From assembly GCF_001542905.1 (NCBI RefSeq), contig NZ_LOAJ01000001.1:1426001-1490000 (forward strand): a DNA stretch of 64,000 nucleotides, in the 5' to 3' direction. Shown here one piece after another: positions 47,366-49,624 of this stretch. The position numbers were made by a program, and so were the translations under genes. The stretch's first letter is position 1. The number at the start of each line of letters is the position of its first letter. Source of the DNA: Halorubrum aethiopicum. GTDB taxonomy: Archaea; Halobacteriota; Halobacteria; Halobacteriales; Haloferacaceae. The notes under the pieces are model-generated. The model was given only the letters and a program-made list of their open reading frames with translations. It was not told where the DNA came from and did not search any database.

Positions 47366-48034
47366 GTGAAGAACGTCACCGACCGCACGCGCAACCCGTT
47401 CGGGATGCGGCCGGACTGTGCCGCGTTCGTGCCGGGGTACGGCGACGCCAACGCCGACTTCCACGTGATCGGCGACCACCCCGGCGTCCACGGCGGTCTC
47501 GAGGAGCGGATCCCCTTCACCGGCGAGCCGTGGTCGCCGGCGTTCCTCGGCGCGCTGACCGACGCCGGCCTCCTCGCGGGGATCGACGAGGGCGACGGCC
47601 CGGCCGGAACGGGAGACGACGATCCCGGCCGGGTGTCGACGGACCGGACGTACCTCTCGTACCTCCACATGTGTCTGGCCGACGGGGAGCCGACCGCGGC
47701 CTCCTACGACGACATGGACCGGTACTTCGACGCGGAGCTCCGGGCCATCGCCGCACACGTCCTCCTCCCGGTCGGCGCGAAGGCCACGGACCACGTCCTC
47801 CGGCAGTACACCGCCCGCGCGTGGAAGACCGAGGTCGACATGGACGCGCTCCACGGCGAGGAGCTGCTCGGGTCCGGATGGCTCGTCCTCCCGATCAAAG
47901 ACCCCGCGGAGTGGGACGACGGGGACGCCGACGAGCTGGTCGAGGGGCTCCGGCGGCTCCGCTCGACCGACTTCCGGCGCGAGACCGACCTCGGCCGGTT
48001 CATCGCCGGCAGCGACCCGTACCTCGTCAGGTGA
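47366..48034 (+). CDS. Uracil-DNA-glycosylase-superfamily protein
   Basis: A 222-residue protein starting with GTG. NPFGMRPDCAAFVPGYGDANADFHVIGDHPGVHGG (in parts) resembles the N-terminal motif GEAPGxxE of family 4/5-type uracil glycosylases, and RTYLSYLHMCLADGEPTAASYDDMDRYFDAEL followed by VLLPVGAKATDHVL matches the second half. The four Cys of the Fe-S type are absent. It belongs to a haloarchaeal subgroup that is annotated as UDG family; activity is unproven. Single gene. Confidence 0.75.
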   Translation: MKNVTDRTRNPFGMRPDCAAFVPGYGDANADFHVIGDHPGVHGGLEERIPFTGEPWSPAFLGALTDAGLLAGIDEGDGPAGTGDDDPGRVSTDRTYLSYLHMCLADGEPTAASYDDMDRYFDAELRAIAAHVLLPVGAKATDHVLRQYTARAWKTEVDMDALHGEELLGSGWLVLPIKDPAEWDDGDADELVEGLRRLRSTDFRRETDLGRFIAGSDPYLVR

Positions 48035-48253
48035 TCGGAGACGGGGCGACGGGTGGAGGCTGGGGCGGCATCCTCGCGCCACGGGCGCGCCGTCGCGGAA
48101 GCGTCGAATTCCGACCCGAGTACGGGGACGAGATCTGACGTTCGTCCCGAAATAGACGCGTTCACCCCGAGGATCGGTGAGATTCACTCGCTCGGGGCGG
48201 TCATATTTGTCGCCACTGCTCGAATTTTATACGATACCCGGCTTTCGTTTTCG

Positions 48254-48340
48254 TGACGCCCGGATCGATCGGGCGTCGGCCGCAGGACTGGTACTCCAAC
48301 GTGCGGCTTGGTCAGGACCGGCCCGCACGGGCCGGTTTTC
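48254..48340 (+). ncRNA. Candidate small RNA with own promoter and terminator
   Basis: A TATA-like TTTATA at 48225-48230 is followed about 25 bases later by a perfect hairpin (GACGCCCG 48255-48262 pairing with CGGGCGTC 48270-48277). The unit ends in a strong stem CCGGCCC-GCAC-GGGCCGG (48318-48335) plus TTTT. No open frame with haloarchaeal composition spans it. Promoter, structured body and terminator over about 87 nt suggest a stand-alone sRNA; no family recognised. Confidence 0.45.
48318..48339 (+). terminator. Hairpin-plus-T4 terminator
   Basis: Perfect 7-bp GC stem, 4-base loop (GCAC), then TTTT at 48336-48339. It is T-followed on the plus strand only, so it ends a rightward transcript, not the leftward asnB-like gene. 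Confidence 0.65.
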
Positions 48341-48384
48341 GACGCAAGCCGGTATTTCGACGTAAGGCCGTGTTTCGGCGCGAA
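48331..48384. repeat. Three degenerate about 18-bp tandem repeats
   Basis: GCCGGTTTTCGACGCAA (48331-48347), a 19-base variant (48348-48366) and an 18-base variant (48367-48384) follow one another at the end of the sRNA candidate. The first overlaps the terminator arm. Confidence 0.6.
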
Positions 48385-48390
48385 CCGGAC

Positions 48391-49587
48391 TCAGGCGTCG
48401 CCCTCGATCAGCGCGTCGACGTACCGCCCGACGTGGTCCTCCATCCGCCGCTTGAACCCGTTTTGCCGCGCGAGTCGATCGATCTCCCGCGAGACGTACG
48501 TGCCGTACTGGACCGCCTTCTTGTCGGCCGTTCGCGCCGACTCGGGGACGCGCCCGGCCGCGGCGCGTCGGAGCGCCACCTTCCGCTCGTCGGGGGTCGC
48601 GAGCAGCTCGCCCGGCAGCCGGAGCGCGGCGTCGACGACGCGGTCGTCGAGCAGCGGCGCGACGGGCTCGACTCCCGCGGCCCGCAGCGCCGGCACGTCG
48701 CGCTCGAGCTGGTCGGGCAGCGTCCGGACCGTCTCGGTCCGCGCCCCTCGGACCGTGTCGGCGTCGACCCGGTCGTCGTCCGCGGGGTCGACGATCTTGC
48801 TGTAGCCGCCGAACAGCTCGTCCGCCCCCTGGCCGACCGCCAGCCGGTCGACCCCGTCGGCCGCGGCCGCCTCCGCGGTCAGGTATAACGGAACGGCGAT
48901 GTTGAGGTCCATGGGGTTCCGGCGGCCGGTCGCGGACGCGATCTCGGGGATCGCCCGCCGGAGGTCGTCGTGCGAGAGCGACACCACCCGCAGGTCTAGA
49001 CCCATCTCGGCCGCGGTCTCGCGCGCGGCCGCGACGTCGTGACACCCCTCGAACCCCGCGACGTAACACGGCGCGTCCGGGACCGCGCTCGCGACGAGCG
49101 CCGAGTCGACGCCGCCGGAGAACGCGACGGCGACCCGGCCCGTCGAGGGGTCGGCCGTCTCGGCGGCGAACGCGTCGAGGGCCCCCTCGATCGCGTCGTC
49201 GACGGCGGCCTGGGCGGTTTCCGGCCCCGAGGGAGCCGGCGTCGGGAGCGGCCAGCGGCGGTCGGTTCCCGACGCCGAGACGACCGACCCGGCCGGGACC
49301 GGCTCCGGGCTCCGGAGGTCGCGCCGGTCGAAGCTCCACGACCTCGGCTCGGTGGGGTCGGTCGCGTCGGCCTCGACGAACAGCGGCTGGCGGCCGAGGA
49401 CGTCGCGGACGAGGACGGGTCCGCCGGCGACGGTCCGGTCCGTCTCGTCGACCGCCGCGGGGGGATCCGCCAGCAACCCGGCGAATCCACGGGTCCCGGG
49501 GAGCGGGTCGCGGTCGCGGATCGCGTCGGCGACGAGGCTCGGGGACGCGCCCCGGAGACGACTCGCGTCGGATCGGTCGTCGGTCAT
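48391..49587 (-). CDS. Asparagine-synthetase-like amidotransferase domain protein
   Basis: About 398 residues. The C-terminal half (residues about 145-395) is the asparagine synthetase ATP-pyrophosphatase domain with the PP-loop FSGGVDSALVAS, then GQGADELFGGYSKIV and a DKK segment. The N-terminal part is short and has no Cys2, so it lacks the glutaminase active site and would have to use ammonia or another donor. It is preceded by a PHP gene on the same strand with a 37-base gap, suggesting an operon. The true product may be asparagine or another adenylated amide. Start MTDDRSDA at 49587; 49596 also possible. Confidence 0.85.
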   Translation of the reverse strand: MTDDRSDASRLRGASPSLVADAIRDRDPLPGTRGFAGLLADPPAAVDETDRTVAGGPVLVRDVLGRQPLFVEADATDPTEPRSWSFDRRDLRSPEPVPAGSVVSASGTDRRWPLPTPAPSGPETAQAAVDDAIEGALDAFAAETADPSTGRVAVAFSGGVDSALVASAVPDAPCYVAGFEGCHDVAAARETAAEMGLDLRVVSLSHDDLRRAIPEIASATGRRNPMDLNIAVPLYLTAEAAAADGVDRLAVGQGADELFGGYSKIVDPADDDRVDADTVRGARTETVRTLPDQLERDVPALRAAGVEPVAPLLDDRVVDAALRLPGELLATPDERKVALRRAAAGRVPESARTADKKAVQYGTYVSREIDRLARQNGFKRRMEDHVGRYVDALIEGDA

Positions 49588-49624
49588 CGGAGCCACCCCG
49601 GCGCGGCGCGAGTCGTTCGCACGG

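Follow-up and report, generated by a model that had tools for sequence, protein, structure and literature searches.

A conserved haloarchaeal small RNA gene with a loop predicted to mask the start codon of a winged-helix regulator mRNA

Among the described archaeal small RNAs (sRNAs), SHOxi of Haloferax volcanii is a trans-acting sRNA that destabilises its mRNA target by base pairing (PMC12482152), and sRNA162 of Methanosarcina mazei targets the trans-encoded mRNA of a transcription factor and is furnished with two target domains, cis and trans (PMC3510493). Conservation among haloarchaeal sRNAs is reportedly poor: the intergenic sRNAs of the H. volcanii deletion collection are, for 22 of the 27 studied, confined to that species, with sRNAH225.2R (HVO_1727s2), hts10 (HVO_2213s) and htsf359 as conserved members, and general target predictors are said to fail (PMC3956466). 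The window analysed here is a stretch of 64,000 nucleotides from Halorubrum aethiopicum, in which an sRNA of about 85 nt is predicted at 48254-48339 (+). It resembles SHOxi as a haloarchaeal sRNA that would base pair with a trans-encoded mRNA; however, the SHOxi target is malic enzyme and the target proposed here is a winged-helix regulator, a separation made by description, and the present RNA further differs in its hairpin-loop seed on the first codons, its family-wide conservation and its covariation with the mRNA. With sRNA162 it shares an archaeal setting and a trans-encoded target mRNA for a transcription factor, whereas sRNA162 belongs to another lineage and uses two domains, in place of a single loop directed at the start of an apparently leaderless mRNA. 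The sRNAs of the deletion collection are likewise intergenic, haloarchaeal and around 100 nt long, but they are mostly one-species RNAs, while the RNA described here occurs in 20 genera; the main texts of four papers (PMC3956466, PMC5892119, PMC12482152, PMC10927574) give no sequence link between its Haloferax copy and sRNAH225.2R, hts10 or htsf359.

The sRNA gene is situated between a uracil-DNA-glycosylase (UDG)-superfamily gene (47366-48034, +; PF03167, E 2e-7) and a convergent asparagine-synthase-like gene (48391-49596, -). In the original prediction, this gap was proposed to hold an independent sRNA gene, about 85 nt long and equipped with a promoter, hairpins and a rightward terminator; comparative evidence supports that proposal, and at the sequence level 48254-48339 (+) is a real RNA gene. 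The TATA-like box on which the prediction was built is present as TTTTATA at 48225-48231 (+), where it is invariant in all 35 Halorubrum copies, and the predicted start near 48254 falls 24-27 nt past this box, in agreement with the claimed gap of about 25 bases; in other genera, a TTTTTA-type box stands in register and stem 1 begins about 25 nt later. Upstream of the box, the promoter element ATATTTGTCRCYACT (48203-48217, +) is conserved in nearly all 35 Halorubrum copies, and a related ATATTGG-type element (ATATTGG..TAAC) is found at the same place before the RNA in other genera. A dedicated transcription factor may bind this element; its exact sequence has a single match in the whole genome, so that a genome-wide search for a regulon showed none. 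At the 3' end, the GC hairpin ACCGGCCC/GGGCCGGT (48317-48324 / 48329-48336) and the T4 run at 48336-48339 were found as predicted, forming a predicted terminator at 48317-48339 (+); most relatives retain a hairpin with a T- or CT-rich tail at this position. A simple terminator scan does not list this hairpin, because the scan requires 5 T in 8. In the genera read, the TATA box in register and the terminator hairpin together point, at the sequence level, to an independent transcription unit.

As the prediction also held, the only rightward neighbour runs leftward, with the asparagine-synthase-like gene ending at 48391 on the minus strand; since the next gene rightward is convergent here and in Haloferax, a cis-acting mRNA leader is not indicated. 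The absence of a credible ORF in the gap was borne out as well: no gene-like ORF lies over the RNA, and the ORFs that run through it are not conserved because of 1-nt indels in stem 1 among relatives, which exclude a conserved reading frame in the Halorubrum alignment. The tandem 18-bp repeats reported at the end of the transcript do exist behind the terminator, in three imperfect copies at 48337-48390 (+) of which the second and third are 78% and 72% identical to the first, but they are absent from the nearest relatives and are therefore not part of the RNA gene.

The 89-nt body folds at -53 kcal/mol, compared with -37.4 +/- 3.3 kcal/mol for shuffled sequences (z = -4.7; 0 of 200 shuffles). 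The perfect 8-bp hairpin recognised earlier at the 5' end corresponds to stem-loop 1 (48255-48277, +), formed by GACGCCCG/CGGGCGTC at 48255-48262 / 48270-48277; 99.5% of its cells are paired, its changes are one-sided only, and other genera carry a GACGCGC/GCGCGTC version. The two hairpins listed in the original prediction are thus both present, but the middle hairpin, which bears the putatively functional loop, was missing from that inventory. This stem-loop 2 (GCCGCA/TGCGGC, 48279-48307, +), whose 3' arm is displaced by 3 nt in the clade to which the window belongs, shows the conservation of stem pairs that had been singled out for checking: within Halorubrum, U-A is replaced by C-G in 12 of 27 distinct sequences and C-G by U-A in one, further compensatory changes occur between genera, and the covariation score was equalled by none of 500 shuffles and by no slid register. 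Together, the frame-breaking indels and the compensatory stem changes characterise a non-coding, structured and conserved RNA. Across the Halorubrum alignment, the conserved upstream element and the invariant TTTTATA are followed by three stems, by the loop GGACUGGUACUCC, which does not vary, and by the linker CUUGGUCAG. The seed loop, GGACTGGTACTC in the DNA, is located at 48285-48296 (+), and the linker, CTTGGTCAG in the DNA, at 48307-48315 (+); the latter is nearly invariant over all genera and is kept even in those in which the seed has changed. RNAalifold suggested that loop GACUG may form a pseudoknot with linker UGGUC: all cells pair in alignment A4, but the pairing is GU-rich and is broken or shifted in g35 and in genome G083.

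A 141-base query matched strongly in all 35 Halorubrum genomes but in none of 24 genomes from outside the genus, and a first covariance model reached other genera of the same family. A second covariance model placed the RNA in 75 of the family genomes searched, from 19 genera including Halorubrum; with the addition of g25, detected by pattern search, the count for the family rises to 20 genera, Halorubrum, Haloferax and Halobellus among them. A pattern scan of named genomes gave matches in Haloferax, Halobellus, Halogeometricum, Haloprofundus, Halogranum, Halobium, Salinigranum and Halegenticoccus, and the layout shared by the other genera consists of the TATA box, stem 1, stem 2 with its loop, CUUGGUCAG and the terminator; in H. 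volcanii the place follows a DUF5793/UDG-like gene pair. Outside the family, the covariance model returned no reliable match, only marginal ones (E about 0.006-0.008); two loci, L036 and L067, and four marginal matches outside the family were taken as chance. Within the family, g29 has neither the RNA nor an orthologue of the regulator in five of five genomes searched, and neither covariance model nor pattern found the RNA in g27 and g31. The g25 RNA (G247:C27:1051061-1051115, L323 / L325) occupies a different locus in one genome, with 22 bits and E 0.03, and was not found in the 400 kb read of a second g25 genome. At this locus, the RNA is flanked by two genes whose N-termini, judged by eye, indicate an S-adenosylmethionine synthetase on one side and a TFB-like protein on the other.

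Searches of collections led to no known family. Rfam 15 has none above its gathering threshold at the RNA, and at a relaxed threshold only chance-level matches appeared, of which the best, nhaA-II, lay on the wrong strand with 20.8 of 70.4 bits. The only passing Rfam match in the window is an S15-Halobacteria ribosomal protein leader elsewhere (RF03143, 50433-50503, +, 66.6 bits, above the gathering threshold), which is likewise a structured haloarchaeal regulatory RNA but is a cis-acting leader of a ribosomal protein mRNA, while the RNA here leads no downstream gene. For box C/D and H/ACA guide RNAs, no RUGAUGA was seen by reading and no Rfam guide match was obtained, the ACA architecture being judged by eye; plasmid and phage collections contained no match. 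The RNA would be a new family of an already known kind, the trans-encoded antisense sRNAs.

Complements of the loop and of the linker were sought in one genome, that of the window. Ten exact GAGTACCAGTC sites (11 nt) were obtained, namely the RNA gene itself and nine others including the proposed target, and the exact seed sites other than the target are mostly within coding regions. One GAGTACCAGTC site starts at nucleotide 3 of the coding sequence ATG AGT ACC AGT CCC, and the loop GGACUGGUACUC (48285-48296) is a perfect 12-nt complement to codons 1-5 (AUGAGUACCAGUCC) of this mRNA. The gene, outside the window at G000:C1:1217129-1217398 (minus strand), encodes a 90-aa winged-helix protein (HTH_24 E 3e-5, MarR_2 E 2e-4) with orthologues in nearly all of the family; paralogues of this regulator are without the seed site. 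A conserved AACCTTTACCA-type TATA-like element is found 29-33 nt before the regulator ATG, which is the position of the haloarchaeal TATA box for leaderless or nearly leaderless mRNAs, so that a leader would be absent or nearly so and the regulator mRNA is apparently leaderless or close to it. The promoter block ATATGTAGCCAACCTTTACCA upstream of the regulator (L243-L272) is strongly conserved and exceeds the length that a TATA box requires, so it may contain an operator, which could be autoregulatory.

Loop and mRNA start vary together among genera, with the pairs GUA/AGT in Halorubrum, CUAG/ACTAG in five genera and CGAG/ACTCG in a sixth, g25. In 10 Halorubrum genomes, loop GGACUGGUACUC (...GGUACUC) is accompanied by AGT ACC AGT C(C), giving 11-16 nt of complementarity; in g30, g32, g33, g34 and g88, loop GGACUAGUGCUC is accompanied by AGC ACT AGT CC (12-13 nt); and in Halobellus, Halobium and most other genera, loop ACUGGUGCUC is accompanied by AGC ACC AGT (10-11 nt). 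Since the g25 mRNA reads AGC ACT CGT, an ACGAG loop was expected there before the g25 RNA was located; the RNA of genome G247 has the loop GGACGAGUGCUC and its own mRNA has AGCACTCGTTCC, so that CGAG meets AGC ACT CGT over 10 nt plus G-U. The exceptions are Haloferax and, likewise, Haloprofundus, Halogeometricum and g35, in which the seeds are only 7-9 nt long, the g35 match being 7 nt. Over 16 genera, the own loop-mRNA pairings sum to 168 nt, while 20,000 reshuffles averaged 123 nt and never exceeded 157 nt, in a test that ignores kinship and for which the loops were verified against their loci; on the gene tree, which is weakly resolved, the site has probably changed independently only some three or four times. 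The AGT/AGC and ACC/ACT changes at the target site are synonymous, and the codons concerned are rare, AGT making up 1.8% of Ser and ACT 1.9% of Thr in the window's genes. Orthologues outside the family begin with AGT ACG TCG or AGC ACG TCC, in which the same serine is TCG or TCC. The mRNAs of g27 and g31 retain AUGAGCACCAGU while no RNA was detected, that of g37 retains the ACTAG form, and that of g39 has ACG AGT or GCG AGT; where a site stands without a detected RNA, either the search missed an RNA there or some other cause partly maintains the site. An exposed seed that is complementary to the mRNA and kept by covariation was found in this way, and the pairing of the loop with the regulator mRNA is strongly supported by these comparisons.

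In the reading that we regard as very likely, the RNA encoded at 48254-48339 acts in trans as an antisense sRNA and masks the regulator mRNA at its start codon. Its transcription would begin at a dedicated promoter and stop at a dedicated terminator, and stem-loop 2 would present a seed loop of 10-12 nt that could form a duplex in the cell with the coding region (AUGAGYACYAGUCC) over nucleotides 3-14. With a leader that is absent or nearly so, such pairing would lie over the site at which the ribosome has to begin, and the outcome would most likely be blocked initiation and less regulator. Because the loop matches the start of the regulator mRNA and has changed in step with it, the RNA probably controls the amount of the winged-helix regulator that is made. 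The same pairing might have the opposite effect, the RNA protecting or activating the mRNA, or the mRNA start titrating the RNA away from other targets. Archaeal sRNAs that stabilise do occur, sRNA154 of M. mazei being cited as one (PMC13286277), and further seed matches exist in the genome, but this outcome seems unlikely, as inhibition is the simplest consequence of pairing from nucleotide 3 when the mRNA is apparently leaderless, and no second conserved target was found in the one genome screened.

A somewhat less probable alternative is a conserved structural or protein-binding RNA, in which a protein partner recognises the loop together with CUUGGUCAG and the match to the mRNA is a coincidence of Met-Ser-Thr-Ser coding. 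Such an RNA would suit an invariant linker that is without an explained partner, MST(S) N-termini are common, and the sites kept in g27 and g31 as well as the short match in g35 are in keeping with it; unlike a protein-binding loop, however, the loop here varies together with synonymous and rare mRNA codons, and none of the 20,000 reshuffles equalled the genera's own pairs, which makes this explanation improbable. It is very improbable that the UDG-like gene, which does lie upstream on the same strand at a distance of about 150-250 nt in most genera examined, has this RNA as its 3' UTR and terminator, either processed or structured: in the genera read, a TATA box and an upstream element are conserved ahead of stem 1 and stand in register, and the g25 RNA has the same layout at a different locus.

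Beyond start-codon masking by an antisense sRNA, the comparisons may be extended, tentatively and with rather less than even confidence, to a family-wide, co-evolving sRNA-regulator pair in which the hairpin loop of one dedicated sRNA, lying over the first codons, silences an apparently leaderless mRNA, the RNA holds the codon choice of that mRNA, and the linker and the upstream element mark a shared protein partner and a dedicated circuit. An RNA kept across the family, with a single strong target that covaries with it and an orthologue throughout Haloferax, where genetics is easy, makes two matters testable, namely how an archaeal sRNA acts on a leaderless mRNA and which processes the small winged-helix regulator governs; in addition, the approach by covariation may find the targets of other archaeal sRNAs.

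For the linker, a second pairing with regulator codons 8-11 (CTGACCAAG, in some Halorubrum) was considered and rejected as general, because it is missing in other genera despite the invariant linker. The same 9-mer, CTGACCAAG, which is complementary to the invariant linker, occurs 7 times in the G000 genome, compared with 38 occurrences of the same letters reversed, a low count that possibly reflects avoidance or composition.
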